Both the position numbers and the translations under genes were made by a program. Under the pieces are notes generated by a model that did no database searches, was not told the DNA's origin, and saw only the letters and a program-made list of their open reading frames with translations. A DNA stretch of 37,132 nucleotides from a virus. The stretch spans positions 1 to 37,132 of IMG/VR virus record IMGVR_UViG_3300005536_000287. One strand, given 5' to 3'. Below are positions 7,297 through 27,158 of this stretch, piece after piece (the stretch's first letter is position 1; every line of letters begins with the position of its first letter).

Positions 7297-7586
7297 AACG
7301 CAAAAGTAAGGAACAACGCGAGACCGCTGCGAAGGCCGCGCTGAGACAGCGCATCGCGGACATCGCAACGGGTGCCGCTGGCTACAAGTTTGATGGCGCC
7401 GATGAATGGGCCAACGCAGACTTCCTCGCGCGATTTGTTCCCGCACTTCGTGTTCAGTTTGGGCTAGACAGCGAGGGCAATGAGCGAAGGGACCGCAACC
7501 ACTTCTGGTTCCTGAGCAACGTGAATCACTACGAAAATGTCGATACCACGTCAGAATTCTTCTTCGAGCATGGCGTGAGAGCGTAA
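7293..7586 (+). CDS. Last gene of the early operon, unknown function
   Basis: The 97-aa product has a basic helical start (KRKSKEQRETAAKAALRQRI) and an aromatic-rich second half (NHFWFLSNVNHYENV). It overlaps the upstream stop as ATGA. It is the final member of the packed rightward block; after it comes a 305-base gap with a heptamer array, a promoter and a structured leader. No family was recognised. Confidence 0.6.
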   Translation: MKRKSKEQRETAAKAALRQRIADIATGAAGYKFDGADEWANADFLARFVPALRVQFGLDSEGNERRDRNHFWFLSNVNHYENVDTTSEFFFEHGVRA

Positions 7587-7599
7587 GTTACTGCTCCCG

Positions 7600-7634
7600 C
7601 TGACTTCTGACGCCTGACTTCTGACCTCTGATTT
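7600..7634 (+). repeat. Heptamer array (5 x 7 nt) before promoter 1
   Basis: The units are CTGACTT, CTGACGC, CTGACTT, CTGACCT and CTGATTT. This is the longest array in the window. It ends 7 bases before the -35 box of promoter 1 and may act as a spacer or an insulator between the early and lysis blocks. Confidence 0.7.
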
Positions 7635-7641
7635 TTGCTGG

Positions 7642-7670
7642 TTGCGGTTAAACCGATCTCGCGCTACTGT
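7642..7670 (+). promoter_or_regulatory. Promoter 1, TTGCGG-N17-TACTGT
   Basis: The -35 is TTGCGG at 7642-7647 and the -10 is TACTGT at 7665-7670, with a 17-base spacer. The bases GGTTGCGG match the other leader promoters at 15586 and 18654. It is expected to start the lysis/packaging transcript about 10 bases before hairpin A of leader 1. Confidence 0.65.
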
Positions 7671-7676
7671 TAGTGA

Positions 7677-7800
7677 CGAAACAAGCGTCCCGTTAGCGGA
7701 CCGGCAAACAAAAAATCGACAGGCCGCAACCGCCTGTCTACTGAGAGGCTCGATAGCAGCCCGCAGACTTCTAATCAAGAGAAGTCGGCGGGTTTTTTGT
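7677..7800 (+). ncRNA. Structured leader RNA, copy 1
   Basis: Hairpin A is GTCC(7687-7690), bulged C, G-UUAG-C, GGAC(7698-7701). An A-rich linker follows, then hairpin B, GACAGGC(7718-7724) with GCCTGTC(7732-7738). Hairpin C is GGCT(7747-7750), bulged C, G-AUAG-C, AGCC(7758-7761). Hairpin D is GCCCGC(7759-7764) plus GACTTCT(7766-7772), paired with AGAAGTC(7780-7786) plus GCGGGT, and is followed by six T. Hairpins C and D share 7759-7761, so they compete. D has the form of an intrinsic terminator. The next gene starts 90 bases later with its own ribosome-binding site. Confidence 0.75.
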
Positions 7801-7891
7801 TTACCAAGGCCCCCTTTCAACGTGTCACCCGCTCACGCAGGTGGTTCTGATAACGCCGGGCTCCGGCCCGCCACAACAAAGGAGAAATCAA

Positions 7892-8131
7892 ATGGGCGAT
7901 CCGAATCGCGATCAGGTTGAAGGCCGGACGGACAAGGCGGCCGGCGAAATTAAGGAAACCGTGGGCCAGGCGACTCACGACAAAGCGCTGGAGAGTGAAG
8001 GCGCGCGCGAAAAGGCCGAGGGCGAAGCGCAGCAAGACCGTGGCGACACGAAGTCTGAAATCGCTGATCAGGTAACCGACCAAATCAAAAAGAGTCAGGA
8101 AGACAAGCTGCGCGAGGGAATGAAGAAGTAG
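7892..8131 (+). CDS. CsbD-like stress protein
   Basis: The 79-aa product is fully hydrophilic and helical. Its pattern (VEGRTDKAAGEIKETVGQAT, then SEGAREKAEGEAQQDRGDTK) is that of the CsbD family: repeated K/A/G-rich helices with GK.kE..G...g......eGk..q..G. CsbD proteins are general-stress proteins of unknown mechanism in bacteria. ATG 7892 follows AAAGGAGAAATCAA; the extended form from 7841 was rejected. It is the first gene after leader 1, at the head of the lysis block, an odd place for a stress gene. It could be a host gene picked up by the phage. Confidence 0.75.
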   Translation: MGDPNRDQVEGRTDKAAGEIKETVGQATHDKALESEGAREKAEGEAQQDRGDTKSEIADQVTDQIKKSQEDKLREGMKK

Positions 8132-9907: not shown

Positions 9908-10418
9908 CAATCTTCCCTCGGCAACCGTAAAGGAGAAACTGTCTGACGGCAGTTACATTGTGGTGATCGAAGGCGGCGCTTACAAAGCAATCTCAGCCGC
10001 GGACGTGAGAGGGATTCTTAAAACCAAAGAAGACCTGGACAAAGCTGTCCGCGCGCGGGTGGAGCTCGAAAAGCAGATCGCTTTCTACGAAGCTAACAAG
10101 TTTGACTTTAAGGAGGTGATCCGCGTTGCAAACGAGCAGCGCGACGAAGAGGTCGGGCTTAAGCTGAATTTCAAAACTCTCTACGAGGACGAAAAGAAAC
10201 TGCGACTGGACGCGGAAAAGCTACACGGCTCCCCAGGTAAAGTCGACAAGCTATTAAGCAATCCGGTGGTCCAGGTGGCGACAAAGATCGTAGTTCCGAT
10301 AGTTCAAACGTGGGTCTCGACGCTAAGTCGCGACCGGACCATCGTCATGCCGTATGACCAGTTGGCGCTATTGCAATCACAGCAGAGGAGCCGCCCGATG
10401 CTCGTGCGGCTTCAGTAG
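9822..10418 (+). CDS. Exported coiled-coil protein
   Basis: The 198-aa product has a clear signal peptide (basic n-region MKNLAR, core SVMMTLCILTLVAVAQ), probably cleaved after AVA. The mature part begins with a small beta segment (ATVKEKLSDGSYIVVIEGGAYKAI), followed by a coiled coil (residues about 65-130) and a short hydrophobic stretch (VVQVATKIVVPIVQTWV). AAGGAGA precedes the ATG. It overlaps the preceding coiled-coil gene. A periplasmic lysis or virion-associated role is inferred from context. It lacks the lipobox of Rz1-type spanins. Confidence 0.6.
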   Translation: MKNLARLSFSVMMTLCILTLVAVAQIPNNNLPSATVKEKLSDGSYIVVIEGGAYKAISAADVRGILKTKEDLDKAVRARVELEKQIAFYEANKFDFKEVIRVANEQRDEEVGLKLNFKTLYEDEKKLRLDAEKLHGSPGKVDKLLSNPVVQVATKIVVPIVQTWVSTLSRDRTIVMPYDQLALLQSQQRSRPMLVRLQ

Positions 10419-10489
10419 TGCGCTCCGGGACATGTGAAACACTCACCGCTCACGCTATACCCCAATATGCGCCGTGGGAGACGATCAAG

Positions 10490-10867
10490 ATGGAGAACAA
10501 CCAGGCCCTGGTTGTTGATGACAACGATGATTTACTGGAATTGCTGGCGACGCTGTTACGACATGAGGGATACACGGTCGAAACAGCGTCGTCTGGTTTT
10601 GAAGCAATCGAAAAGTTTCAGCAAGGCGGCTTTTGCGTGGTGCTCTCCGACATCGGCATGCCGGTGATGAACGGCTACGAGCTGGCGCGAAAGCTGAGGT
10701 CGCTGCCCGAATGCAAGAAGACCGTGATGATAGCAATAACGGGATTTCAGATTTATGGTGATCGGGCGCGGGCTCTTGCTGCCGGCTTCGACGATTTGTT
10801 TACTAAACCCATCGCGATGCGCTCGCTGCTTGCCACGGTTGAAAGGTTGCGCAGAGATAAGAAATGA
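10490..10867 (+). CDS. Stand-alone CheY-like receiver domain
   Basis: The 125-aa product is one response-regulator receiver domain with every key residue visible: the acidic pair D10/D11 in LVVDDND, phospho-acceptor D54 in VVLSDIGMP, T84 in IAITGF and K106 in FTKPI. It has no output domain. In bacteria such domains accept phosphate from histidine kinases and signal by protein contact. GGGAG lies about 11 bases upstream of the ATG. It sits inside the lysis block between an exported coiled-coil gene and the holin candidate, an unusual place. A host-derived accessory gene that couples lysis or host signalling to kinase state is a possible inference. Confidence 0.88.
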   Translation: MENNQALVVDDNDDLLELLATLLRHEGYTVETASSGFEAIEKFQQGGFCVVLSDIGMPVMNGYELARKLRSLPECKKTVMIAITGFQIYGDRARALAAGFDDLFTKPIAMRSLLATVERLRRDKK

Positions 10868-15738: not shown

Positions 15739-17223
15739 ATGGCCGACTCAACCACAAAGCTCATTGATGTGCTCTCCGGCGAGATCCTCTCCAGCGAGCG
15801 CCTGGGGCAATTCATGATATTTGGCGGAGGCCTCGGCGGTGGGAACGTTTTCATTCCCGACGATCCGTCAGTCGTTTGGAATCAAATTCTGTGGGACCAT
15901 CCGTTTGCGATGTACGTCTTTCGCGACCTGGAGCTGAAAGACGACATGCTCAGCTCAGCGCTGGAGACGCGCAAGGAAGCAGTTCTCGCCGATGAGCGGT
16001 TTGTGAAGCCGGCGAGCGACAAACGCCAGGACAAGAAACTAGCCGACTTCATCTCCGAGACTCTCGAAGGATATATGGGCGGCGGAGACGGTCTGAGGTT
16101 TGGCTTTGATAATTTTCTCTGGGAAGCGCTCAACGCGAGCGGCGATGGCGTGACCATAGGAGAAAACGTCTATGAGCATGCCAACGATCGCGTTTTCATC
16201 AAGAGTGTAAACTTCAAACCTCAAATGCTATTCAGCTTCGCTGAAGGCCCCCTGGCTCAATACCAAAACTACGCATTGCCGCAAACCGGACCTCTGCGTC
16301 TGCGCTCCGATCTCGGCTTCGCCTTTGAGGGTCTTGATCCGGAGCAGCCCTTGCCCGAAGGGAAGTTTTTCGTTCACACCTTTCGGCCTTACCAGGGCGA
16401 CCGCTGGGGTTCGCCGCAAAAGCTACGTGCTTATTGGATTGCCTGGTTCAAAAAAGCCGGCATGAAACAGTCGCTCCGATTCCTCGAACGAGGGCCGGGC
16501 ACTGTCTGGGCGAAATACAACACGGGCGGGGGCGAGGACGAAAAAAACAAAGCTCTGGAAGCCGCACAGGCCGCAGCCGAAGAAGCTTCAATAGCCACGA
16601 GCAAGGGTACCGAGATCGAGGTCCTGGAAAACGTGCGGGGCAACATGGGCAGCGCGCACAGTGAATTCCTCGATCGTTGCGACAATGGCATCGCTCGAAT
16701 CGTCCTGGGCCAGACGCTTACCAGCAAAGGCAGTGAAGGCGGAGGCTCGCTCGCCCTGGGCGAAGTCCATGAAAGAGTAGCCGGCAGAAAGAAGGAAGCA
16801 GACGCGAAGTCGTTGATGCTGGCTGTAAATACGCAACTTGTTTTTCCGCTTGTGCTGCTCAACCAGGGGCCGGTGGAACGTCCACCCATCTGGATGATCA
16901 AATACCAGCCCGGCGCCGATCTGGAGTTGATGTCGAAAATCCTCTATCGAGCCTGGCAGCAGCGCGTTCCTTATACGAAGACGTTCTACTACGAGACGAT
17001 GCAGATTCCGGCGCCGGCCGAAGGTGAAGACTTGGTTGAGCCGCCGACAAAGAGCGATGAAGACAGCGCGGTGCCCGGAGGAGAGTCGGCAACCAGCTTC
17101 GCTGAATTCACCGAGGCCGTAAAAAAAAAGTCCCGGCATTCGTTGAACGACAAGCGCGAGAAGCAGCCAACCTTGAACAAAGGACGCTTCAAGTCGCTGC
17201 AACCATCTACGATGAAATCCTGA
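15739..17223 (+). CDS. Portal protein (Mu gp29, DUF935), frame breaks at A9
   Basis: The 494-aa frame matches the DUF935 portal family. The N-terminal part carries SSALETRKEAVLA and the core a FKPQMLFSF-like strand. The block VLGQTLTSKGSEGGGSLALG, then EVHERVAGRK, is diagnostic of the Mu portal. Twelve portals form the DNA gate and the packaging motor base. From A9 at 17121-17129 onward this frame becomes Lys/Arg-rich and stops. The -1 frame instead continues as a natural portal C-terminus (KVPAFVERQAREAANLEQ, then LQVAATIYDEILTTLAAVV) into the MuF gene. Translation starts 10 bases after leader 2 hairpin D, with no ribosome-binding site. Confidence 0.88.
   Translation: MADSTTKLIDVLSGEILSSERLGQFMIFGGGLGGGNVFIPDDPSVVWNQILWDHPFAMYVFRDLELKDDMLSSALETRKEAVLADERFVKPASDKRQDKKLADFISETLEGYMGGGDGLRFGFDNFLWEALNASGDGVTIGENVYEHANDRVFIKSVNFKPQMLFSFAEGPLAQYQNYALPQTGPLRLRSDLGFAFEGLDPEQPLPEGKFFVHTFRPYQGDRWGSPQKLRAYWIAWFKKAGMKQSLRFLERGPGTVWAKYNTGGGEDEKNKALEAAQAAAEEASIATSKGTEIEVLENVRGNMGSAHSEFLDRCDNGIARIVLGQTLTSKGSEGGGSLALGEVHERVAGRKKEADAKSLMLAVNTQLVFPLVLLNQGPVERPPIWMIKYQPGADLELMSKILYRAWQQRVPYTKTFYYETMQIPAPAEGEDLVEPPTKSDEDSAVPGGESATSFAEFTEAVKKKSRHSLNDKREKQPTLNKGRFKSLQPSTMKS
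17121..17130 (+). promoter_or_regulatory. Candidate -1 ribosomal frameshift site A AAA AAG
   Basis: In the portal frame the codons are GTA AAA AAA AAG, which contains the slippery heptamer A AAA AAG known from dnaX and IS elements. A GAGG lies about 11 bases upstream, similar to the stimulatory internal Shine-Dalgarno sequence of dnaX. The downstream TCGT-TGA-ACGA hairpin is weak. A one-base homopolymer error would look the same. Confidence 0.5.
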
Positions 17224-17237
17224 CCACGCTCGCGGCC

Positions 17238-18152
17238 GTGGTTGATAAACACGGCCTCACGCCCCCGCCGGCTGCCGCGTCGATTGCCGTCGACTTCGAC
17301 TCACTGACTGAATTACTCGAGGAAAGTTTTCTGGCGTCTTACCTGCTTGGCCTGGACCACGTAGCTTCGACCGCCGACCGCCGACCGTCGACCGTCGCGT
17401 TTCAGGACCCGATCGCAGTTGGTTTCAACGTCCCACCACGCGAAGCCATAGAGCATTTCAAAGCGAAGAAAATAGTTCGCAAAAAGGAATTCAATAAGTT
17501 GAGCCGTGAAGCGAAGTCCGCATCGTTTTCAGTGAGCCGCGTTTACAAAGAAGATGTTCTCAAAGGATTCAAGCAGGAGCTGCACGACGCGCTCGACCAG
17601 GGAAGGACCCAGGCCCAGACGATCAAGCGGTTCCACGAGATCCTCTCCGGCGCCGGGCACAAGCAGCTTGGAGACTTTCACCTGGAGACAGTCTTCCGGA
17701 CCAACATGCAGACGTCCTATGGAGTTGGCCGGCGCAAGGGGCTGGAAGAAGTAAAAGAGGATCTGCCGTTTTGGACCAGACACGCGGTAATGGACGACCG
17801 CACCAGGCCGAAGCACGTCGCGCTCAATGGGCTGACGCTTCCGGCCGATCACGAATTCTGGGACACGCATTTCGCGCCGGATGATTTCAACTGCCGCTGC
17901 ATGGTAACGGCCGCAGTAACCATTCCCGATGGTTACGATCCGCGCAATCCCAGCGGCGTGACGGACGAATATGGTCAGCCACTGGTTCAGCTTTCCTACG
18001 ACGCCCACGGTCTGCCGGCGAAGGTTGAATACGGCACAACTCTCTACGATCTGGCCGTCGGAGACTTCGCCGGCATTCCGCGCGGCGCCACTTTGCAGAG
18101 CGCGATCGAGGCAGGAGTGGAAAAAAGTCAACACTCCAGGCGGAAGAAGTAG
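17238..18152 (+). CDS. MuF head morphogenesis protein, fused in frame to portal C-terminus
   Basis: Residues about 1-40 of this frame (to SFLASYLLGLDHVA) look like the C-terminal end of a DUF935 portal, not like MuF. The MuF part follows. PPREAIEHFKAKK is the family's EAi.ffr.K segment. RTN is near residue 153. The MuF signature DDRTRPKH..LNG is near 186, and the CRC of NCRCMV is near 220. MuF proteins are minor head proteins made with the portal. The first possible start is a GTG with no ribosome-binding site, so expression probably comes from -1 frameshifting or from a fused gene of about 804 aa. Confidence 0.85.
   Translation: MVDKHGLTPPPAAASIAVDFDSLTELLEESFLASYLLGLDHVASTADRRPSTVAFQDPIAVGFNVPPREAIEHFKAKKIVRKKEFNKLSREAKSASFSVSRVYKEDVLKGFKQELHDALDQGRTQAQTIKRFHEILSGAGHKQLGDFHLETVFRTNMQTSYGVGRRKGLEEVKEDLPFWTRHAVMDDRTRPKHVALNGLTLPADHEFWDTHFAPDDFNCRCMVTAAVTIPDGYDPRNPSGVTDEYGQPLVQLSYDAHGLPAKVEYGTTLYDLAVGDFAGIPRGATLQSAIEAGVEKSQHSRRKK
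17368..17395 (+). repeat. Heptamer array (4 x 7 nt) inside coding linker
   Basis: The units are CGACCGC, CGACCGC, CGACCGT and CGACCGT, the cleanest array in the window. It encodes TADRRPSTV between the portal-like C-terminus and the MuF domain. Gain or loss of one 7-base unit would shift the reading frame. Confidence 0.75.
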
Positions 18153-18170
18153 GGAGGGAAATTTTGCCAG

Positions 18171-18199
18171 TTGTGGTTAGATCAAACTAGCGGTATGGT
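18171..18199 (+). promoter_or_regulatory. Promoter 4 candidate, TTGTGG-N17-TATGGT
   Basis: The -35 TTGTGG is at 18171-18176 and the -10 TATGGT at 18194-18199, with a 17-base spacer. The flanks GCCAGTTGTGG and GATCGAAGAG parallel promoter 2, so the two regions look like duplicates. No hairpin A/C leader follows it. It would transcribe the Com-like gene. Confidence 0.5.
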
Positions 18200-18291
18200 G
18201 ATCGAAGAGAACAAGTTTCTTCTGATTTGAAAAGAAAGGAGAGAGGCCCTTGACATCTCGTAACTAAAAGTAAGGTAGCAGTCAGCAGAGA

Positions 18292-18320
18292 GGGTGGCGA
18301 CAGGTGGCTTATCGCCACCC
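18292..18320 (+). promoter_or_regulatory. Hairpin with two competing 5' arms
   Basis: GGGTGGCGA(18292-18300) can pair with TCGCCACCC(18312-18320). GGTGGC(18303-18308) can instead pair with GCCACC(18314-18319) in a tighter hairpin. The two structures exclude each other. There is no T-run after it. It lies in the 5' leader expected from promoter 4. Confidence 0.45.
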
Positions 18321-18411
18321 ACCAACTTTGCGCGACGTTGGCCTGTGCCGAAAGTAACGTGCTGACCTAGCCACTTAGGAAGCGAAGCCGAATTGAATGA
18401 TATTTGCGCAA

Positions 18412-18440
18412 TTGAACGGCCATTGTAGGCCAATTATTTT
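18412..18440 (+). promoter_or_regulatory. Promoter for Com-like gene, TTGAAC-N17-TATTTT
   Basis: TTGAAC is at 18412-18417 and TATTTT at 18435-18440, with a 17-base spacer. The spacer contains the palindrome GGCC-ATTGTA-GGCC, a possible operator placed between the two boxes. The Com-like ATG lies 36 bases after the -10. Confidence 0.55.
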
Positions 18441-18475
18441 TAGACCTAACCCCGCCATTTAACGATTTTAGAAAA

Positions 18476-18679
18476 ATGATCGAAGTTCGCTGCAATCGCT
18501 GTAACAAGTTTCTCTTCGAAGTGAGTGATGACGCTCAGGGAACGGTCGGCGCCACCTGCCTGCGGTGCAAAGTGAAAAGACAGATCGTTATAACAGAGGA
18601 CTTCAAACGCGTAGCCCGACAACAGCAGGCACAGCGGCATCCAAAAAACCCAGTTGCGGTAAACGAGCAACCGCGTTAG
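18476..18679 (+). CDS. com: Com-like zinc-finger RNA-binding protein
   Basis: The 67-aa product opens MIEVRCNRCNKFLFE and has the Cys set C6, C9, C28 and C31 (TCLRCK). This matches Mu Com, whose RCKNCNKLLF and CPRCK give C6, C9, C26 and C29. Mu Com is a zinc protein that binds the mom mRNA and opens its ribosome-binding region to allow translation. No mom gene is seen here. The gene stands alone behind its own promoter and its 3' end contains the -35 of promoter 3, just before leader 3. Regulation of the leaders by this protein is an attractive inference, not shown. Confidence 0.8.
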   Translation: MIEVRCNRCNKFLFEVSDDAQGTVGATCLRCKVKRQIVITEDFKRVARQQQAQRHPKNPVAVNEQPR

Positions 18680-18682
18680 ACT
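18654..18682 (+). promoter_or_regulatory. Promoter 3, TTGCGG-N17-TAGACT
   Basis: TTGCGG is at 18654-18659 and TAGACT at 18677-18682, with a 17-base spacer. The -35 lies in the last codons of the Com-like gene and the -10 begins at its stop codon. It has the same architecture and spacer as promoters 1 and 2. Confidence 0.65.
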
Positions 18683-18688
18683 CCCGAA

Positions 18689-18818
18689 TTGACAGTGCGC
18701 CCCGTTAGCGGGCCAAAGACAAAACATCATCTGAGCGGTGACCGCTTTCGCCGCCAGCTCTCATAGAGGCTCGATAGCAGCCCGTTGGTTAAACCAGACC
18801 AGCGGGCTTTTCGTTTTT
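18689..18818 (+). ncRNA. Structured leader RNA, copy 3 (protease/scaffold leader)
   Basis: Hairpin A is GCCC(18699-18702), bulged C, G-UUAG-C, GGGC(18710-18713). The stem differs from copies 1 and 2 by a compensatory pair change (U-A to C-G) while the loop is unchanged. Hairpin B contains AGCGG-TGA-CCGCT (18734-18746). Hairpin C is GGCT(18768-18771), bulged C, G-AUAG-C, AGCC(18779-18782). Hairpin D is AGCCCG(18779-18784) with CGGGCT(18803-18808), extended by TGGT/ACCA. Ten bases (TTTCGTTTTT) then precede the protease ATG, as in copy 2, without a Shine-Dalgarno sequence. Confidence 0.78.
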
Positions 18819-19931
18819 ATGACCACTAAAAAGAAACCAGGCTTCGACGGTCAATGGATCGACGGCACGCCGGTGGGCGACCACATTGACTCGACAGGAA
18901 CGCCGATAACGATCGACGTCGCTTTCCTGGAAGCGGTGGTTAGTAACTACGACCCCAGCCTGCACACCGCCCCCGCGGTAATCGGACACCCCGAATCTGA
19001 CGGCCCGGCTTATGGTTGGGTTATCGCTCTTCGAGTAAACGACGGCCGGCTCGAGAGACAGTTCGCGGAAGTCGATCCCAATTTTGAAGAGCTGGTGCGC
19101 AAGGGCTATTTTAAGAAGCGGTCCGACGCCTTCTATCTCGATCCAAAATCCTCGCCTAACGGAAAAGCTCCTTATCTCAGGCACGTTGCTTTTCTCGGAG
19201 CACAGCCGCCCGCCATTAAGGGTATCCGCGACATCCACTTTGAAGAAGGCAAGATCGTAACTGCCGACATCGATTCCAGCACAACTGAATTCAGCGAAGG
19301 AGACGTTATGACAGACGCCGAAAAGAAAGCCGCCCAGGAAGAAGCAAAGAAGACCGTGCGCGAAAGCGTCAGCGAGTTTTTCAAAGAGCTGTTCGGCGGC
19401 AAGGACGACAAGGCGACGGCCAGCTTCAGTGAGGCCGATCAGCAGAAGTTGATCGTCAGAGCCACCGAAGCGGCCGAAGCGAAGTTCTCCGAAGAGCTGA
19501 AGAAGCGCGACGAAAAAATCGAAGAGCTAACGACCCAGGTGAGCCGGCACGGCAGCTCGACCACGCGCGCGTCGATCGTCTCCTTCTGCGAAGATCTGCA
19601 GCGCCAGGGCAAGTTCCTCCCCGCCTTTAAGGCAGCCGGCGCTATTGAGTTTATGGAGCTGCTGGCGTCAATCGCAGACACGAAGGAGACGAAAGTGTCT
19701 GTCGTCAGCTTCGCCGAAGAGAACGGAGTCGAAGTCGAGAAGAAGGTTGAAATCACACCGCTCGACTGGTTCAAGAATTTTCTGTCCTCGCAACAGCCGT
19801 TCATCCAGTTCGGAGAAAAGTTTGGCAGTCTCCGTCTCAAAGGCGACGGTTCGCAGATCGCCGATCCGAAGCAGATCGATTCGTTGCGTGCTGGCATGGG
19901 TGTGAAAACGGAAGCCGCCGCCGCGAAATAG
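18819..19931 (+). CDS. Mu gpI-like head maturation protease with scaffold domain
   Basis: The 370-aa product has an N-terminal protease-like part (about residues 30-140: APAVIGHPESDGPAYGWVIA, then FAEVDPNFEELVRKGYFKKR, then LRHVAFLGAQPPAIKGI). This is the pattern of the Mu gpI / minor capsid protease group. A scaffold-like part follows, with a Lys/Glu coiled coil (about 163-245) and a C-terminal helical region. Such proteins guide capsid assembly and are then cleaved. The ATG is fixed by leader 3; an in-frame start at 18738 lies inside the leader and was rejected. An internal start gives the scaffold alone. Confidence 0.85.
   Translation: MTTKKKPGFDGQWIDGTPVGDHIDSTGTPITIDVAFLEAVVSNYDPSLHTAPAVIGHPESDGPAYGWVIALRVNDGRLERQFAEVDPNFEELVRKGYFKKRSDAFYLDPKSSPNGKAPYLRHVAFLGAQPPAIKGIRDIHFEEGKIVTADIDSSTTEFSEGDVMTDAEKKAAQEEAKKTVRESVSEFFKELFGGKDDKATASFSEADQQKLIVRATEAAEAKFSEELKKRDEKIEELTTQVSRHGSSTTRASIVSFCEDLQRQGKFLPAFKAAGAIEFMELLASIADTKETKVSVVSFAEENGVEVEKKVEITPLDWFKNFLSSQQPFIQFGEKFGSLRLKGDGSQIADPKQIDSLRAGMGVKTEAAAAK
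19308..19931 (+). CDS. Nested scaffold protein (Mu gpZ-like internal start)
   Basis: Inside the protease gene, in the same frame, ATG 19308 is preceded at 5 bases by AAGGAG (19297-19302), much better than the unaided upstream start of the full gene. It would yield a 207-aa protein beginning MTDAEKKAAQEEAKK that holds only the coiled-coil scaffold part. Mu makes a scaffold Z from an internal start in gene I in the same way; lambda Nu3 inside C is a parallel. The internal signal is seen; the product is inferred. Confidence 0.72.
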   Translation: MTDAEKKAAQEEAKKTVRESVSEFFKELFGGKDDKATASFSEADQQKLIVRATEAAEAKFSEELKKRDEKIEELTTQVSRHGSSTTRASIVSFCEDLQRQGKFLPAFKAAGAIEFMELLASIADTKETKVSVVSFAEENGVEVEKKVEITPLDWFKNFLSSQQPFIQFGEKFGSLRLKGDGSQIADPKQIDSLRAGMGVKTEAAAAK

Positions 19932-19982
19932 TTTTGACCCCGTCTGCGTGAGCGGGCGGAAACGAATAAGAGGAGAATTCCT

Positions 19983-20546
19983 ATGCCGCCAACCCAGACC
20001 ACTGAAACCTTTCCCCGGCGCGTGCCGCTTGAAGCCGTTCGTGCTGACCTGGCTGTGCAGATTCCGTTGACCGTGAAGGCTGCCACTGGTGTGCGCCGCG
20101 CCGCGGTCCTCGGCGTTATTACAGCCACGGACTATATCCGCGAGCGCTCACGTTCAAATGCGGCCGCTGCTTACGCGGTCGGCGTCCAGGTGATCGAAGT
20201 CGACGACGCCTCGGTGTTTATTCCCGGCGACGTGCTGAAGCTCGAGGACGGCACCGCAGTCGGCACCATCGCCGCCGCTGGAGTGAACGTCGACGATAAC
20301 GAGCTCACGCTGGTTGCGGTGACCACCGCGGAGATCGCAGATGGCGATGCAGTTCTAGCCTCTGACGGCTCGCAGGTGGCAAAAGCGATCGCTGACGAAG
20401 CGGTAGCTGCAGCGCAGTCTGTCGATACTGTGTTGTCTCCTTATATCGGCGGCGCGCTGAAGCGCAGCCTGCTGATTGGATTGGACGATTCGGCGATCGC
20501 TGAACTCGGCGGCGCCGTATTTCCGGGCGACATTTTTAAGTTCTGA
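19983..20546 (+). CDS. Putative head decoration protein
   Basis: The 187-aa product is Ala/Val/Asp-rich and beta-predicted: VEVDDASVFIPGDVLKLEDG-like strands, then TAVGTIAAAGVN. Its C-terminus reads SPYIGGALKRSLLIGL, then DDSAIAELGGAV..GDIFKF. Proteins of this shape between scaffold and major capsid are usually decoration or stabilisation proteins that sit on the outer capsid. AGAGGAGAATTCCT precedes the ATG, a strong ribosome-binding site. The role is inferred from order and composition; the family was not securely matched. Confidence 0.65.
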   Translation: MPPTQTTETFPRRVPLEAVRADLAVQIPLTVKAATGVRRAAVLGVITATDYIRERSRSNAAAAYAVGVQVIEVDDASVFIPGDVLKLEDGTAVGTIAAAGVNVDDNELTLVAVTTAEIADGDAVLASDGSQVAKAIADEAVAAAQSVDTVLSPYIGGALKRSLLIGLDDSAIAELGGAVFPGDIFKF

Positions 20547-20557
20547 TTTTTGGTTAG

Positions 20558-20605
20558 GACACGCACGGGCAGAAATGCCCTGTACCACTCAAAGAGGAGC
20601 GGCTA
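20558..20605 (+). repeat. Small hairpin GGGCA-GAAA-TGCCC before capsid gene
   Basis: The sequence ACGGGCAGAAATGCCCTGT forms a 5-bp stem with a GAAA loop. It lies between the decoration and capsid genes and is followed by AGAGGAG, the capsid ribosome-binding site. It may be one of the dispersed palindromes of the host. Confidence 0.45.
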
Positions 20606-21664
20606 ATGATTACTTATCGATTTCCCACTAACGTTTCGGTCGACGGCGTGCTGCAGGAGTATGTCATTCAGCGCGAGAAGCTAAAGGGCATCAATTTGCT
20701 GCCTTTTCAAAATCTCTACACGCAGCGCGTTGTCTGGGACGAGTTGGATCGCGAGCGTGGCGCCACGGCTCCTCATAACATGAACGCCGATCCCAAGGTC
20801 GACGATCGGCCCGGTTCGAAACGTCATGAGTACACGCCCATCCCGCACAAAGAAACTGACCTTCTGACGGAGCGCGACATTCTTATGCCGGCCACGCTCG
20901 GCACGCTGGGCGGTGTTCTGGATCTGAGCACTGAGATCGGGCGCATCACCAAGGCGCGGGCCGACAAGAGTTACATTCGCGCTGAAATGGAAATCTGGCA
21001 GGCGCTGCGCGGCCATCTCCAGGTGAATGAGAATGGCGTAGTGGTTGACGAGGTTTTCCCGATTCAAACCTACAACGCTTTGGTGGATTGGGACGAATTT
21101 GAGACGGCCACAATCCTTGTCGACTTAATGAACGTTGCCTTGAAGTTTCGCTTCACCGGCGCGTCGGCTCGCGGGGCGGTAGGTTACCTCACGCAAACAA
21201 CGGCGAATTGGGTGTTGAGGAATATCAACCCCGATGACCTCAAGGGATTTCAAAATCAGAACTTCCTGTCGTTGCCTTACAGTCTCGACCAGGTGAACAC
21301 GATCCTGACTGCTCGCGGTCTTCCCACGCTCGAAGTTTATGACGAGGGCTACGTCGACGAGGAAGACGTAGAGCAACGATTTGTCGAAGACGGCGAAGTC
21401 GTCGTTATAGGCAAGCGGATGGACGGGAATCGCATTGGTGACTACGGTCTCACGCCGACCGCTCACCGCCAGGAGAACGGCCAGCCTGCGCCGGGCTTCT
21501 TCTCGATCGTTGAAGTCAACGGCCAGCCGAATCCAGGATCGGTGACTGTCGCCCAGCTCGGCTCCGGAAAGAATCCGAAGATTGAAATCACGGGCGGCAT
21601 GTACGGCGGTCCTCGTCTCAAGTACCCCCGGTCGGTCGTGAAGATGGATGTGAAGCTGACGTAA
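20606..21664 (+). CDS. Major capsid protein (lambda gpE-type HK97 fold)
   Basis: The 352-aa product carries features of the phage major capsid E family: an N-terminal arm, a region with RERGATAPHNMNAD, then ILMPATLGTLGGVLDLSTE, an IRAEMEIWQALRG-like helix of the spine, and the A-domain block VYDEGYVDEEDVEQRFVEDG, then VVVIGKR. The C-terminus FFSIVE..., then YPRSVVKMDVKLT is typical. The order scaffold, decoration, E-type capsid is lambda-like, whereas Mu itself uses gpT, so the head module is mosaic. AGAGGAG lies before the ATG. It would form the icosahedral shell. Confidence 0.85.
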   Translation: MITYRFPTNVSVDGVLQEYVIQREKLKGINLLPFQNLYTQRVVWDELDRERGATAPHNMNADPKVDDRPGSKRHEYTPIPHKETDLLTERDILMPATLGTLGGVLDLSTEIGRITKARADKSYIRAEMEIWQALRGHLQVNENGVVVDEVFPIQTYNALVDWDEFETATILVDLMNVALKFRFTGASARGAVGYLTQTTANWVLRNINPDDLKGFQNQNFLSLPYSLDQVNTILTARGLPTLEVYDEGYVDEEDVEQRFVEDGEVVVIGKRMDGNRIGDYGLTPTAHRQENGQPAPGFFSIVEVNGQPNPGSVTVAQLGSGKNPKIEITGGMYGGPRLKYPRSVVKMDVKLT

Positions 21665-21683
21665 TTCTCGCTTGGTTAGCGCA

Positions 21684-21962
21684 ATGGCCGATGCGAATCC
21701 CAGGGTCCATCTTGGCGAGTTGCCGCTGACGGCCGAGTGGCAGGTGTATGTGGCGCCCATCAATTGTTCCTGTATCGAGTTGACCGCCGATAAGGATTGG
21801 GCCTGGTGTAGCGATAAAGAGTCGGGAGCGGTTAGAGCGGTGCCGGCGTTTCAGCGAGAGATGGTTGTTCCTAAGGTCGACAGGCTGATCATGAAAGGCG
21901 AGCCGGTAGTCTGGGTCAAGGCAGAAGAAGAGGGAACGTTGTTCGAAAAGTGCGTGAGGTGA
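21684..21962 (+). CDS. Small protein after capsid, unknown
   Basis: The 92-aa product is mixed beta/alpha (WQVYVAPINCSCIELTADKD, then WAWCSDKESGAVRAVPAFQR, then VVWVKAEEEGTLF). It has Cys at three places, but not as a zinc ribbon. The position right after the capsid gene suggests a head-completion or tail-interface protein; this is a guess. The chosen ATG has no convincing ribosome-binding site; TTG 21672 is an alternative. It ends just before the next start. Confidence 0.5.
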   Translation: MADANPRVHLGELPLTAEWQVYVAPINCSCIELTADKDWAWCSDKESGAVRAVPAFQREMVVPKVDRLIMKGEPVVWVKAEEEGTLFEKCVR

Positions 21963-21964
21963 GG

Positions 21965-22564
21965 ATGAAGGATTCGCGGACAAATTTGGCGGTTGCTGTG
22001 GCGGCAATTCTCCTGGCCGTGCTCTGGCCGGTTCGCGCACAGCAAAACGTTTCCGCGGGCGGCGCCGTCTCGATCGTGCAGGGCGGCAATACTGCCACAG
22101 TCTCCGCGTCCAATGCGCTCAAGGTTGACGGCTCGGCCGTAACACAACCAGTAAGCGGCACCTTCTGGCAATCCACGCAACCGGTCTCCGGTCCGTTGAC
22201 GGACGCGCAACTGCGAGCTTCGGCCGTCCCGGTAACCGGCAGCTTCAGCGCCACACCTCTGACGGGCTGCGGCTCTACCAACTACGACTCCGGGATTATT
22301 ACGATCCCAAACTCGACGACTGTCCTGACGTCGACCGCAACCTGCGTGAGCGTAATCATCCTGATCAATCTCACCAGCACGCAGCAGACCTGCACGGTCA
22401 CCGATGGCCAGGGCTCGCCGGCGAATCTAGTCCCACCAAATTTTGATCTCTGGCCGAAGACTGACGCCGTCTTTAATCGCTATGGAGCGAAGGCGCTGAG
22501 CGGGATCAAGTGGAGCTGCACCAACGCTGCAGCAGTGGCGGGAATTGTGAGAGGTAACCAATGA
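21965..22564 (+). CDS. Exported virion-module protein 1
   Basis: The 199-aa product starts with a strong signal peptide (MKDSRTN, core LAVAVAAILLAVLW, cleavage after VRA). The mature part is Ser/Thr/Val-rich beta sequence (SAGGAVSIVQGGNTATVSAS, then VDGSAVTQPVSGTFWQ) with a Cys-containing C-terminal domain (STATCVSVIILINLTSTQQT). TQPVSG-like units are seen twice, as in many phage structural proteins. GGTGAGG precedes ATG 21965. A signal peptide on a gene between capsid and neck is unusual. The ATGA overlap with the next gene shows the three exported genes are linked. Confidence 0.65.
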   Translation: MKDSRTNLAVAVAAILLAVLWPVRAQQNVSAGGAVSIVQGGNTATVSASNALKVDGSAVTQPVSGTFWQSTQPVSGPLTDAQLRASAVPVTGSFSATPLTGCGSTNYDSGIITIPNSTTVLTSTATCVSVIILINLTSTQQTCTVTDGQGSPANLVPPNFDLWPKTDAVFNRYGAKALSGIKWSCTNAAAVAGIVRGNQ

Positions 22565-23016
22565 GCCGGCCAATACCACTTCACTATGCGCTGATCCTGT
22601 TCCTGCTTGTTGGCGGTGTCGTCGCTTCGCCTGAGCTGACGGCGTCGAACAATGGTAGCGAAGTGCGCTGTGATTCGTCCGTTGTCATCAACCAGGCGAC
22701 GGCAACAACCACGCAGCTCGTCGCGCTTTCCGCAGGGAAGAAAGTCTACGTTTGCAGTGCGACAGTGAACCAGGTGGGCGCCACCACCGCGCCGACATTC
22801 AAGTTTGTGTACGGCACGGGGGCCAACTGCGCCACCAGCCCCGTTGATTTGACCGGAGTCATCAGCGGCGCAAACGTCGCCGGCACGATTACAAATGTTC
22901 AGCTCGGGGGGAACGGCCTGGGCTATGTATTTTCGACGCCGGCGAGCCAGGCGCTTTGCATTACGACCACGACCACGCAGGCGCAGAAAGGTCTGCTGAG
23001 TTACACGCAATTTTAG
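22561..23016 (+). CDS. Exported virion-module protein 2
   Basis: The 151-aa product has a signal peptide (MSRPIPLHYALILFLLVGGVVAS). A beta domain follows in which CDSSVVINQATATTTQLVAL, then GKKVYVCSATV, then FKFVYGTGANCATSPVDLTG, then GYVFSTPASQALCITT, resembles a widespread small domain of phage structural proteins with four Cys. This family resemblance is from memory and unconfirmed. The Cys probably form disulphides, which fits export. It overlaps the upstream stop by four bases. Confidence 0.65.
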   Translation: MSRPIPLHYALILFLLVGGVVASPELTASNNGSEVRCDSSVVINQATATTTQLVALSAGKKVYVCSATVNQVGATTAPTFKFVYGTGANCATSPVDLTGVISGANVAGTITNVQLGGNGLGYVFSTPASQALCITTTTTQAQKGLLSYTQF

Positions 23017-23018
23017 GA

Positions 23019-23039
23019 GGCAGTCGGCAGGAGGCAGGA
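23019..23039 (+). repeat. Heptamer array (3 x 7 nt) supplying an RBS
   Basis: The units are GGCAGTC, GGCAGGA and GGCAGGA. The array ends in AGGAG, 8 bases before ATG 23048, and so serves as its ribosome-binding site. Confidence 0.6.
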
Positions 23040-23047
23040 GAACGAAA

Positions 23048-23584
23048 ATGAATATCAATAAAAATTCGCTTAACAGGAACACACCGATCCTTGCGGCCGC
23101 AGTAGTCGCAATCGTTGCCATGCTGCTTTCCACTTTCCTGGTGAGCCATACGGAGGCGGCAGCCGCGTTGTGGTCCATTGCCCGGACCGGGAGCGCAATT
23201 AGCATCGCCGACACCGGCGCAATATCCATCGCGCCAAAGTCCGGCAAGCGCACAACCGTGACTCGCGGGTTTGTTCCCTACTCGACGAAGACCGTGCTTA
23301 CACCTGGTGCGAACGTCACCGTGGATTCGACGCTCGGCAACTACTTCACGCTGACGCCGGCTGAAGCGGAAAACATCAACGCCACCACAGTCGGAGCGCA
23401 GGGCCAGCCGTTGATCATTGAAGTTGTCACGTCAGGCACAAACAGCTACGTGCTGACCTTCAATACCAACTTCAAGTCGACCGGCACTCTGACCACGGGC
23501 ACCGTGAGCGCCAAGACTTTCGTGATTTCTTTTTTAAGCAACGGCACAAACTACGTTGAGACCGGCCGCACAGCAGCGCAGTAA
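23048..23584 (+). CDS. Exported or membrane-anchored virion-module protein 3
   Basis: The 178-aa product has an N-terminal hydrophobic helix (TPILAAAVVAIVAMLLSTFLV, about residues 12-32) that serves as signal or anchor. The rest is a beta domain (ANVTVDSTLGNYFTLTPA, then EAENINATTVGAQGQPLIIE, then SYVLTFNTNFKSTGTLTTG). This is of the type found in phage fibre and head-fibre proteins. The array just upstream provides the ribosome-binding site. It completes a run of three exported genes placed inside the head/neck gene order. Confidence 0.65.
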   Translation: MNINKNSLNRNTPILAAAVVAIVAMLLSTFLVSHTEAAAALWSIARTGSAISIADTGAISIAPKSGKRTTVTRGFVPYSTKTVLTPGANVTVDSTLGNYFTLTPAEAENINATTVGAQGQPLIIEVVTSGTNSYVLTFNTNFKSTGTLTTGTVSAKTFVISFLSNGTNYVETGRTAAQ

Positions 23585-23587
23585 GGG

Positions 23588-23612
23588 GACCGGCGCTTAG
23601 CGCCTGACGGTC
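23588..23612 (+). promoter_or_regulatory. Hairpin before gp36 gene
   Basis: GACCG(23588-23592) pairs with CGGTC(23608-23612), and the inner GCGC-TTA-GCGC stacks on it, with CTGA bulged on the 3' side. TTT follows, then the gp36 ATG after 8 bases. It could be an attenuator or a processing stem between the exported genes and the neck genes. Confidence 0.5.
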
Positions 23613-23620
23613 TTTGAAAA

Positions 23621-24070
23621 ATGGGCGTTTACATTAGCCAGGCAGAAATTGAAACGCGCATCGAGCGAACAAAGCTGATTCAGCTTACCGACGATGCCCG
23701 GACCGGTGACGTGAATGCGGCGGTAGTGGCAGCCGCTATCACTGACGCCGAAGGAACCTTCGACTCATACGCTCGCACGCGCTACACCCTCCCGGTGCCT
23801 GTTACTCAAAAGGTCAAATCAATTTGCCTGGATATCGCGGTCTTCAAGCTGTTCGAACGCAGGGCGTCAACGAAGGACGGGATCTTTGAACTTAAAGAGC
23901 GGGCCTACGACAAGGCAATCAAATTCCTCGAGGCGATCGCGAAGGGCACGGCGGCGCTTGATGTGCCAGCGGCAGAAGAGACGAAAACAAATCCGGCCAG
24001 CGCCGACGAGGTCTTAAGCGGTTCGTCACGGCCGTCGCCGTTTTCGGATGACAACTTACGGAATTTCTAA
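23621..24070 (+). CDS. DUF1320 protein (Mu gp36), neck
   Basis: The 149-aa product shows the DUF1320 pattern: a start with YISQAEIETRIERTKLIQLT, then AAITDAEGTFDSYARTRYTL, then PVTQKVKSICLDIAVFKLFE. This is the family's ytt.edL.......l..Ltd....g......v..ai.dA...idsyl..rY.lP pattern. Gp36 of Mu belongs to the head-tail joining region, probably a head completion or adaptor protein. The C-terminal 30 residues are Ser/Pro/Asn-rich. No ribosome-binding site is clear; the hairpin described before it is 8 bases from the ATG. Confidence 0.85.
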   Translation: MGVYISQAEIETRIERTKLIQLTDDARTGDVNAAVVAAAITDAEGTFDSYARTRYTLPVPVTQKVKSICLDIAVFKLFERRASTKDGIFELKERAYDKAIKFLEAIAKGTAALDVPAAEETKTNPASADEVLSGSSRPSPFSDDNLRNF

Positions 24071-24090
24071 TTGTCCTGCTCTTTGAATCT

Positions 24091-24594
24091 ATGGCTGAAG
24101 ACATCCACGGGCTGAGGTTACTACTGGATCGTATCGGGCAGATGGAGCAGGACGTGCGCCATGCCGATCGCGTGCTCAGGGTTGCCGGCGAGCTCGTGGT
24201 CACCTCGGTCCATAAGAATTTCCAGCAGGAAGGCCGGCCAAAAAAGTGGACGCCGCTTAGGCCCGCGACGATAGCCGCCCGGCGCAGAGGTAAAGGTCGC
24301 GGGGGAGTCAAGATTCTCCAGGAGAACATCCATCTACTAGGCGGCATTCATAAGGAAGTTGTAGCCGGGGGAGTAAAAATCGCAACTAGTCCGCTCCCGT
24401 ATGCCAGACGCCAACACTTCGGTTACGTGGGATCAATGAAGATGGGGTGGGACAGACGGGCAGGGAGGCCCACCAAATCAGGTGGACCGGGCCGAGGACA
24501 CGCTTTCACGCCGGCGCGGCCGTATCTGATGATCCAGCCCGAAGACATCACGGACATCGGCAACGTCTTTCGCCGGCACATCGCTCGTAAATAG
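24091..24594 (+). CDS. Virion morphogenesis protein (Mu gpG / P2 gpS-like)
   Basis: The 167-aa product has the family hallmarks: an N-terminal helix (LRLLLDRIGQMEQDVRHADR), then FQQEGRPKKWTPLRPATIAA, then RRRGKGRGGVKILQ, an LPYARRQHFG segment and a C-terminal RPYLMIQPEDITDI. In Mu and P2 this protein participates in tail completion and head-tail joining. It is in the expected position after gp36 and before gp37. The Ala-Arg-Pro-Tyr motif corresponds to the conserved pARpflg of the family. The start has no strong ribosome-binding site. Confidence 0.85.
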   Translation: MAEDIHGLRLLLDRIGQMEQDVRHADRVLRVAGELVVTSVHKNFQQEGRPKKWTPLRPATIAARRRGKGRGGVKILQENIHLLGGIHKEVVAGGVKIATSPLPYARRQHFGYVGSMKMGWDRRAGRPTKSGGPGRGHAFTPARPYLMIQPEDITDIGNVFRRHIARK

Positions 24595-24606
24595 AAAGGT
24601 CAACTT

Positions 24607-24687
24607 ATGCGCAGGAAACTTTGGCTCGTATTGATGTTGGTCCTGGTGCTCGGTACCTCCGGAGGCAGCCAGTTCTGCGGACAGTAG
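24607..24687 (+). CDS. 26-aa signal-peptide-like mini-protein
   Basis: AAAGG lies 8 bases before ATG 24607. The frame encodes MRRKLWLVLMLVLVLG, then TSGGSQFCGQ, then a TAG stop four bases before the gp37 start. It is a basic n-region plus an 11-residue hydrophobic core and almost nothing else. It may be a small membrane peptide, a leader for translational coupling to gp37, or a decayed exported gene like the three upstream. A lipobox is not present, because the residues before the Cys do not fit. Confidence 0.4.
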   Translation: MRRKLWLVLMLVLVLGTSGGSQFCGQ

Positions 24688-24691
24688 GAAA

Positions 24692-25315
24692 ATGCCGGAG
24701 TTCGATTTCTTTGTCGGTGGGATTGAAGACGGCATCACTGAAATCTTGTGGGCCGCATTGGGTAGCGCGGCAGAGCCGCCAGGTTATTTGAATGAGATCG
24801 CAATGTACGGTGGAGAGCTCGACGAGAAAGTCCTGAAGCAGTTCATCGACGAGCTCACACCGCGCTTCCCGTTAATGCTCGTGACCTATGGCGACGGTGA
24901 AGACGATCTCGCACCGGCAACCGCTCCGGTCTTTGGCGAGCCGCGAATCTGGCGCCACGACTGCACGTTCAGCGTTATCTGCTGCTCAGACGACGCCCGC
25001 GGCGAGACGGACCAGCGAAGGGGTGTTGGCGGTGCTTACCAGATGGTTGCGGATGCGCGGAGGCTGTTAGCCGGCCGGCAGTTGAAAAAGGAAGGCACGC
25101 TATTGACGTTCGAGCCACTACGACCTTCCGGAGTGGAATACCTGGCCCGGCTGCCGCAGCTCACGGCCTATTCGGTCCACTTCGATACTTACTTTAAATG
25201 GACCGAGCCCGACAGGCGCGCTGCCGGTATCCCGGTTGAAGGATTGATTTTTGATGTAACACCGCTCGGTGGGCCAACTCGGCCAGGCGGAAAACCCGGA
25301 GTGATATTCGAATGA
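24692..25315 (+). CDS. Gp37 (DUF1834-like) tail terminator candidate
   Basis: The 207-aa product matches the Mu gp37 group: IEDGITEILWAALGSAAEPP, then DELTPRFPLMLVTYGDGEDD, then a strand rich in IWRHDCTFSVICCSDDARGE, and a C-terminal DVTPLGGP segment. This family lies between gpG and the sheath in Mu-like phages and is considered a tail-end/neck protein. It overlaps the next gene by four bases. There is no separate ribosome-binding site beyond GTAGGAAA. Confidence 0.75.
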   Translation: MPEFDFFVGGIEDGITEILWAALGSAAEPPGYLNEIAMYGGELDEKVLKQFIDELTPRFPLMLVTYGDGEDDLAPATAPVFGEPRIWRHDCTFSVICCSDDARGETDQRRGVGGAYQMVADARRLLAGRQLKKEGTLLTFEPLRPSGVEYLARLPQLTAYSVHFDTYFKWTEPDRRAAGIPVEGLIFDVTPLGGPTRPGGKPGVIFE

Positions 25316-25542
25316 TAGTCAAAAATTTATACGCACAGCCGCTCACGCTTTCGGACGGCACGGTGCTCTCGGCCGCGGGCACTGAAGGCTCAGCCAAAAC
25401 CGTTGCCGCCCTCGACGAGCGCGATATTAAACGCCTGGTGCGTCGCGAGCTGATTAGCGTGCGCGACGATGAGATTCAGGCGGCGGCCCCGAGTCCGAAG
25501 CAACCCAAAGCCCAAAGTTCTGAGACGGTGAAGGAGACCTAA
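25312..25542 (+). CDS. Gp38 (DUF2635-like) small protein
   Basis: The 76-aa product has an N-terminal part (MIVKNLYAQPLTLSDGTVLS, then AAGTEG..., then LDERDIKRLVRRELISVRDD). This matches the pattern of Mu gp38/DUF2635 proteins (kP......g....p..G..v....w..rl..GDv). The C-terminus is Pro/Ser/Lys-rich. It always precedes the tail sheath in Mu-like phages, as here with a 2-base gap. The precise function is unknown. It overlaps gp37 as ATGA. Confidence 0.6.
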   Translation: MIVKNLYAQPLTLSDGTVLSAAGTEGSAKTVAALDERDIKRLVRRELISVRDDEIQAAAPSPKQPKAQSSETVKET

Positions 25543-25544
25543 CA

Positions 25545-27080
25545 ATGCAAAGCTTAGTCGTTGAAAGCAGCAAGCCCGGTGTGATCGCGATCATCAACGC
25601 CGGCCAGGTTGCGCGGTCAGTCGAGCGGCAGCCGACCTCCACATTCTTTGTGGTTGGCTATTCGCCCTGGGGGCCGACAGAGTCTCCCCGAACCATTACG
25701 AGCTGGGCTGACTACGTGCGTCAGTTTGGCGGCTTCGATGCCAACTCCTATTTGGACGACGCGCTCTATACTTTCTTCAATCTCTTCCCCGGCGCCCAGG
25801 CAGTCGTCTGTCGCGTCGTTGGTGACGCGGCGGCCGTAGGTACGTTGTCTTTGAAAGACCGCTCTGCCGGCGCCGGCCTCAACACGCTGCGGGTCGACAA
25901 GAAATATCCGTCAACCCGAGTCGATGTGAAGGTAACGATCGAAGATGGGACAGATGCCGACACCTTCAAGCTGACTGTTCGCAGCGCCTTCCTTCAACGC
26001 AAGGAAATTTACGACAACCGGTCGATGAACGACGCCGCCACACTGGCGGAGATCAATCAGAAATCTCAGCTCGTCGCAGTTACCGATCTCGGCAGCGCGA
26101 CCGCCTCGCCAAACGATAATCCTCGCGTGCTTGTTGAGACAGCGCTGTCTGACGGCAGTGATGATTTCGCGGGACTCGCCGCTGCCGACTACATCGGAAC
26201 CGACAATGACGTAACTCGCACCGGCCTTCAGACCTTCAAGGACGAAGCGTTTGGCACCGGCCAGGTGGCGATCCCTGGATTGACCACCGATGCGGTCCAC
26301 GCCGCTTTAGTAGCGCACGCTGAAACCTTCCACCGGCTCGCGTTGATTGATCCGCCACTCGCTTCTGACAAGGACGACGTGGTCACGGTCCGCGACAACT
26401 ACGGCACCTGGTACGGCGCTATCTATTGGCCCTGGGTGGAAGTACTCGATTACGAAGGCACCGGCGCCAGAAAGTTTATTCCGCCTTCGGCCTTCGCCGC
26501 GGGTGAATGCGCCAGAGGCGACCGCACGATCGGGACGCACCGGGCGCCGGCGAATCTCGCCTCCATTCCGGGAGCGATCGGTGTGGAGCTCACGTCCGGA
26601 GGCGCATCGCAAACCGATGACAATACAAGGGAGTTCCTGAACGGCCATGAAGTCAACGTCATCGCGACGTTGCCGGAACAGGGCGTTCGAGTTTATGGAG
26701 CGCGCGTGATGACCGCCGATCGCCGCGTCTCCTGGGTCCATCAAATCCGACTGCTCAACCTCTTCTACTACTCGCTGAAAGTTGCCTATAGCTGGGCAGT
26801 GTTTTCAGTCGTCGACGGCGGCGGCCGGCTCTTCCGCGATCTCCGCACTACCGGCTCGGCATTTCTTCGCAGCTTTTGGCAGTCGGGCGCGCTCTACGGA
26901 AAGAAAGAGGAAGAGGCTTTCAGCGTAGTCGCCGACGCCAGCAACAACCCTCCGGGAGAGCTGGAGGAAGGCCGCGTTCATGTTCAGGTTGGGGTAAAGA
27001 TTTCACCGACTGCTGAACAGATCTTCGTCAACATCGACAACGTGCCGTTGTTCCAGGACCTGGGCATCCTGCAGTCGTAA
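25545..27080 (+). CDS. Contractile tail sheath protein
   Basis: The 511-aa product has the sheath fold signature. The N-terminus SKPGVIAIINAGQVARSVER, then TFFVVGYSPWGPTESPRTIT, then WADYVRQFGGFDANSYLDDA, then LYTFFNLFPGAQAVVCRVVG is the canonical first domain. The C-terminal domain contains VRVYGARVMTADRRVSWVHQ, then an SYFLRSFWQSGALYGKK-like region and a final VHVQVGVKISPTAEQIFVNI. Polymerised subunits contract to drive the tube. GAGACCTAACA precedes the ATG. The region after the stop holds two dispersed palindromes. Confidence 0.93.
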   Translation: MQSLVVESSKPGVIAIINAGQVARSVERQPTSTFFVVGYSPWGPTESPRTITSWADYVRQFGGFDANSYLDDALYTFFNLFPGAQAVVCRVVGDAAAVGTLSLKDRSAGAGLNTLRVDKKYPSTRVDVKVTIEDGTDADTFKLTVRSAFLQRKEIYDNRSMNDAATLAEINQKSQLVAVTDLGSATASPNDNPRVLVETALSDGSDDFAGLAAADYIGTDNDVTRTGLQTFKDEAFGTGQVAIPGLTTDAVHAALVAHAETFHRLALIDPPLASDKDDVVTVRDNYGTWYGAIYWPWVEVLDYEGTGARKFIPPSAFAAGECARGDRTIGTHRAPANLASIPGAIGVELTSGGASQTDDNTREFLNGHEVNVIATLPEQGVRVYGARVMTADRRVSWVHQIRLLNLFYYSLKVAYSWAVFSVVDGGGRLFRDLRTTGSAFLRSFWQSGALYGKKEEEAFSVVADASNNPPGELEEGRVHVQVGVKISPTAEQIFVNIDNVPLFQDLGILQS

Positions 27081-27084
27081 ATCA

Positions 27085-27145: not shown

Positions 27146-27158
27146 AGGAGAAGTTTAG

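Follow-up and report, generated by a model that had tools for sequence, protein, structure and literature searches.

Phage structural proteins that are extended by frameshifting are already known. Tail chaperones of the lambda G/GT type, which are also present in Mu and SPP1 (17.5/17.5*), are made as a short and an extended product via a programmed shift in a morphogenesis gene, and SPP1 gp17.1* is a frameshift-extended structural protein that occurs beside the plain form gp17.1 (PMC6316719). The same kind of pair is reported for Lactobacillus phage A2 and Listeria phage PSA. Among head proteins, the portal and the minor head protein of the MuF family are represented by gp6/gp7 in SPP1 and gp29/gp30 in Mu, with SPP1 gp7 being portal-bound in few copies, and in Microbacterium phages of the clusters EA3, EA5, EA8 and EB the portal and MuF form one polypeptide (PMC7302621). 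How a phage limits MuF-type proteins on its portal ring to a few, and in which position these sit, is poorly understood because the binding is non-covalent and the copies are few. Length variants arising at homopolymeric A runs are further known from Thermus dnaX and from tssM, in which transcriptional slippage takes place on A9 or A11 (PMC1088944, PMC4256274). For portal or MuF genes, no precedent involving frameshifting or slippage was found in open-licence PMC papers, in keeping with a sequence-only reading of the DNA studied here that was aware of none, and no earlier report of a two-product portal/portal-MuF arrangement was found either.

The locus in question belongs to a Mu-like phage with a contractile tail and lies in the window, i. 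e. the whole stretch of DNA that was analysed, an IMG/VR record of 37,132 bases. The gene set of the phage comprises GemA, terminase, Mu portal, MuF, protease/scaffold, E-type capsid, sheath, tube and tape measure. A stand-alone response-regulator receiver domain is encoded between the early and the head genes (10418-10867; PF00072, E 2.4e-24), and MuF is followed by a small CxxC zinc-ribbon-like ORF without Pfam match (18476-18679), which presumably resembles Mu Com and has a similar counterpart in one relative, L082. The portal/MuF junction consists of the following elements:

15739-17223, plus strand: portal ORF in the 0 frame, from ATG at 15739 to TGA; 494 aa including a 30-aa alternative tail after the tract
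17113-17116, plus strand: GAGG, 7 nt 5' of the heptamer; weak and not conserved
17121-17129, plus strand: putative slippage tract of nine A's, with A9 or A10 present at this place in 13 of 13 lineages
17124-17130, plus strand: heptamer A_AAA_AAG, in slip phase and usable by a ribosome
17130-17220, plus strand: dual-coding stretch with the alternative portal tail in the 0 frame and the portal C-terminal helix in the -1 frame, with selection on both
17130-18152, plus strand: -1-frame extension, portal C-terminal helices followed by MuF, adding 340 aa past the shift and ending with TAG at 18150-18152
17185-17211, plus strand: 0-frame tail motif GRFKSLQPS (RFxxLRPS in relatives)
17221-17223, plus strand: 0-frame stop TGA
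17238-17240, plus strand: GTG, first ATG/GTG/TTG of the MuF frame, 36 codons past the tract and beyond the conserved -1-frame block
17568-17906, plus strand: MuF core domain (PF04233; also TIGR01641, SPP1 gp7-like)

The portal ORF matches Portal_Mu (PF06074, E 1.4e-64, residues 60-423, 219 bits against a cut-off of 23.9) as well as the PHROG 113 portal, and around the tract, which is the only run of at least eight A's in the window, it reads GCC GTA AAA AAA AAG TCC. From there the 0 frame continues into its 30-aa basic tail. The -1 frame is open without interruption from 17106 to the TAG at 18150-18152, and its extension matches Phage_Mu_F (PF04233, E 6.6e-17; 62.7 bits against a cut-off of 29.6). 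Hence, the sequence-only reading had placed the A9, the portal frame and the open -1 frame accurately and had the heptamer in the right phase, and the GTG at 17238 indeed lacks a ribosome-binding site, as no purine-rich Shine-Dalgarno (SD) sequence was found upstream of it in the window. A -1 shift at the tract yields a portal-MuF fusion of 464 + 340 = 804 aa. In an AlphaFold2 model of the -1-frame product from tract to stop (pLDDT 80.5), two long helices, sitting where other portals have their C-terminus, precede MuF; no significant PDB match to this model was found. The portal part, modelled from 10 sequences, reached a pLDDT of 43 and was set aside.

Relatives were gathered by profile scans of IMG/VR and are all metagenomic. 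With the window and 12 further lineages from IMG/VR, whose portals are 44-63% identical to that of the window, 13 lineages carry A9 (eight) or A10 (five) at the same site. Without exception their second frame is -1, with none in frame and none at +1. The first relative found, L002 (58-63% identity), shares with the window the fifteen bases GTAAAAAAAAAGTCC and the layout of the two frames. The tract appears in several codon contexts:

Window, L002, L006 and L035: GTA AAA AAA AAG (A9)
L009 and its near copy L008: GTA AAA AAA AAA C (A10)
L023, L024 and L047: CAA AAA AAA AAG (A10)
L045 and L085: GAA AAA AAA ACT (A9)
L087: CAA AAA AAA ACT (A9)
L086: AAA AAA AAA GTC (A9)
L033: AAA AAA AAA ACT (A10)

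At the ten loci that were checked (GC 51-57%), the tract is the sole run of at least nine A's. Outside the clade, none of 76 portal/MuF junctions shows an A run of at least eight close to where the portal ends; many of them have a MuF start codon on the portal stop or close to it, and in four the two genes form a single frame. Relatives with an uninterrupted fused gene and no homopolymer, which the sequence-only reading had named as evidence against a shift, were encountered solely among far more distant phages (e. g. L005, L062, L066), and no member of the clade is fused in frame. In the portal tree, the 13 lineages and L082 form one clade (support 100/100) with two label changes, the second of which is L082, whose record has lost the tract and is devoid of any MuF. 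As far as the tree tells, the A tract was gained once in the clade and lost only where MuF is gone. In L082 (6150-6700), the portal is truncated just 5' of the tract position; short repeats of the AGGTCAG type come next, together with a small CxxC protein. Two scans of genomes of GTDB species revealed no relatives, and a tblastn search of phage isolates gave homologues of about 28-38% identity among the matches listed, none covering 80% of the query. L024 was counted for the tract and excluded from the junction statistics because its MuF is scrambled. In this locus (L024/L096, IMGVR_UViG_3300044815_000221, 16400-36200), the A10-tract portal-MuF gene is either rearranged or mis-assembled, with MuF pieces (model positions 1-16, 191-206 joined to 16-190, 189-330) between which two modules of about 9 kb are placed; each module contains one tape-measure-like ORF and one HTH-like ORF in reverse orientation.

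The -1 frame is in use directly behind the tract. The 12 lineages whose MuF side is intact share a conserved block with the pattern A..LE.GAL..AAP.YD that begins a few codons past it. A first ATG/GTG/TTG in this frame follows only 29-75 codons after the tract, at a position that varies by lineage. Since the conserved block precedes any start codon, only a shift from the portal frame can express it; judging from the reading frames, this segment can only be translated by entry from the portal.

The 0-frame tail is under selection as well. The sequence-only reading had described this frame after the tract as Lys/Arg-rich, and while a basic tail with a stop at 17223 is indeed there, it is not just filler. 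At 4-fold sites of the -1 frame within the overlap, the share of differing pairs per column is 0.42; it is 0.63 both downstream (Mann-Whitney p 0.004) and in the portal (p 0.003). In four columns (Ala/Leu/Ala/Pro) the synonymous base varies hardly or not at all (GCG eight times, CTT eleven times, GCT six times, CCC nine times), although CTT, GCT and CCC account for 19%, 17% and 18% of their codon boxes, and read in the 0 frame these bases give the motif RFxxLRPS. When the -1 protein was fixed and its synonymous codons were redrawn, simulated tails reached an identity of 0.214 ± 0.013, whereas 0.374 was observed; none of 300 simulations attained this value, and neither did any in three reduced sets of greater divergence, with 500 simulations for each set. 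An exception is L009, whose tail stops early and is without the RFxxLRPS motif. Selection on the 0-frame tail in addition to the -1 frame implies that both products are maintained, which would be predicted by a programmed shift, but not by an error, a pseudogene or an incidental overlap. Programmed recoding at the portal/MuF junction thus seems very likely from the sequence data, and we are nearly as confident that it serves two selected products, whichever machine slips. The 494-aa portal and the fusion of about 804 aa that had been anticipated from the window alone are backed by the -1 relation in 13 lineages and by this dual selection.

Several explanations can be set against programmed recoding. 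Homopolymers are the usual site of indel errors, and one-frame portal-MuF fusions do occur naturally (PMC7302621; L005, L062, L066), so that it has to be considered whether an ordinary gene pair, fused or adjacent, carries an indel introduced by sequencing or assembly or was recently inactivated by mutation. Yet the same -1 relation recurs in 13 lineages from independent metagenome assemblies without a single in-frame case, and neither an indel nor an inactivation would predict a selected 0-frame tail; this is the least probable of the explanations. Scarcely more credible is phase variation, in which replication slippage would change the tract length and switch the fusion on or off within a population: A9/A10 tracts are typical contingency loci, but none of the 13 independent records shows a fused or a +1 arrangement, and where lineages differ between A9 and A10, neighbouring bases differ as well, in a way that preserves the -1 relation. 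Separate translation of MuF from an internal start, with an open upstream -1 frame that is incidental, could draw on the many other phages in which MuF begins at the portal stop codon and on the internal GTG and TTG codons that are present. This is a similarly improbable scenario in light of the -1 frame being conserved ahead of any start codon and of candidate starts that differ in place between lineages.

More weight has to be given to a purely ribosomal programmed -1 frameshift at A_AAA_AAG/A that would resemble dnaX and dispense with RNA polymerase slippage. A_AAA_AAG or A_AAA_AAA is in phase in 13 of 13 lineages, the second frame is always -1, L045 combines a strong SD-like element with a stable downstream stem (both at percentile 0.01), and the window and L035 harbor a moderate SD-like element. 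However, neither stimulator is conserved. The GAGG that had been noted upstream of the window tract is there, but it is unremarkable, as 15% of gene positions score as well (percentile 0.15), and relatives do not preserve it; over the 13 lineages the SD-like percentiles range from 0.01 to 0.93 (0.90 in L009, 0.93 in L085). Likewise, a stem-loop near the slip site is not conserved over the lineages and is strong in L045 only, a consensus hairpin about 50-75 nt 3' of the slip site shows covariation near zero and is broken in the window, and an Rfam search of the window gave no match. (A downstream RNA structure was also considered as the cause of the conservation and rejected: the hairpin overlaps the dual-coding motif, yet the invariant CTT and GCT third bases lie in the loop.) Moreover, the A run is always 9-10 long in the clade and occurs in three codon phases, whereas 6-7 A's would suffice for a ribosome, and free synonymous sites 5' of the heptamer stay A. 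The Val 4-fold site just 5' of the Lys codons is GTA in five of five lineages, although GTA makes up 48 of 493 Val codons (9.7%); the corresponding codon-choice test, which takes branches as independent and rests mainly on these five sites, gives p 9e-6, or 9e-4 if three branches are counted (the window/L002/L006 group once). The Gln codon at this place is CAA in L023, L024 and L047. The dnaX-like ribosomal signal proposed from the window alone is hence not borne out, and a ribosome acting without RNA polymerase is a tentative alternative that we consider rather less probable than not.

Since the dnaX-like stimulators are not conserved, whereas at least nine consecutive A's persist in three codon phases and extend over synonymous sites that are free to vary, slippage by RNA polymerase is favoured over a purely ribosomal event, and RNA polymerase is, with moderate confidence, the main slipping machine. 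In many bacterial genomes, selection against A/T runs is evident from length nine (PMC1088944), and the A9 in tssM of Y. pseudotuberculosis gives 15-25% slippage (PMC4256274). Against RNA polymerase alone, a +1 frame would be equally usable, yet the relation is -1 throughout, and the in-phase heptamer in every lineage leaves room for ribosomal slippage; one study also reports that long stretches of A make ribosomes slide (PMC4363877). Both machines would yield the same 804-aa fusion, with VKKKVPAF as the sequence at the junction.

The slipping machine, the product ratio and the incorporation of the fusion into the portal ring are what we infer here, starting from a layout, a conservation, a need for a shift and a dual selection that can be read in the sequences. 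Very probably, the head operon of this clade of Mu-like contractile-tailed phages contains a programmed slippage site at which most transcripts or ribosomes stay in frame, giving a portal that ends in the short conserved basic tail. A fraction would gain one frame step on the A9/A10 tract and give the portal-MuF fusion, most likely through RNA polymerase adding one A (A9 to A10), while ribosomal -1 slippage on A_AAA_AAG/A may contribute on top. A mixed ring would thereby hold a few covalently attached MuF copies inside the head, in place of the separate MuF gene of other phages. Portals are 12-mers, and at a slippage rate of 10-20% each ring would contain one or two fused subunits. This would fit the copy number of SPP1 gp7, the best-studied MuF, which is portal-bound at 1-2 copies per capsid (PMC5576092).

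MuF proteins can also carry toxin domains (PMC5576092). Behind the slip site of L035, MuF harbors a C-terminal ADP-ribosyltransferase domain (7487-8077; PF03496, E 8.5e-22), and the C-terminal 160-200 aa in L045, L085, L086 and L087 match no family; the slip would also dose any such cargo. The MuF of L087 additionally contains an in-frame insert of about 290 aa (7118-7987) with weak similarity to intein-splicing domains (PF14890, E 5.5e-6, below the cut-off; TIGR01445, E 1e-3).

When the control junctions were scanned for MuF domains reaching upstream of the first start codon, a second arrangement came up. In L126 (3594-3620) and L143 (4791-4825), with GC contents of 31-32% and identities to each other of 88% (portal) and 77% (MuF), the portal ends with AAT TTT TTT TAA, MuF is in the -1 frame across the T8, the 0-frame stop follows directly after the run, and the first start codon of the MuF frame is located more than 100 codons inside MuF. 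Both fall outside the A-tract clade in the MuF tree, the deep forks of which are weak, and their T8 junction is probably an independent instance at the same gene junction. Taken together, RNA polymerase slippage on a dedicated A9/A10 tract may represent a stoichiometry device that sets the share of MuF-bearing portal subunits, in L035 along with an ADP-ribosyltransferase-like cargo, while the same 90 nt dual-code a functional second portal tail and at least one other group (L126/L143, T8) independently does alike; for this combined reading we see the chances as evenly balanced.

A slippage-controlled portal extension would provide a built-in ratio and a fixed attachment point, and the question of MuF number and position thereby becomes testable. 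If RNA polymerase slips, this would be a conserved case of transcriptional slippage serving virion assembly in a DNA phage. In practical terms, automated annotation of these phages will place the MuF start wrongly and overlook both the fusion and the portal C-terminal helices.

With respect to the known systems, the arrangement differs in each case in a specific way. The lambda G/GT type concerns tail chaperones, whereas here it would be the head portal that receives MuF as an extension, at a run of 9-10 A's and with a selected alternative tail. The extended proteins of SPP1 (gp17.1), A2 and PSA are major capsid or tail-tube proteins and are not known to involve portal or MuF. While SPP1 gp6/gp7 and Mu gp29/gp30 are encoded by separate genes with a copy number determined by binding, the attachment would be covalent here and its extent set by slippage. 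The Microbacterium fusions are permanent and leave no plain portal, whereas fusion in the A-tract clade would be conditional on slippage. Finally, Thermus dnaX and tssM are bacterial genes whose mechanism was demonstrated experimentally, whereas the present case would concern a phage structural gene.
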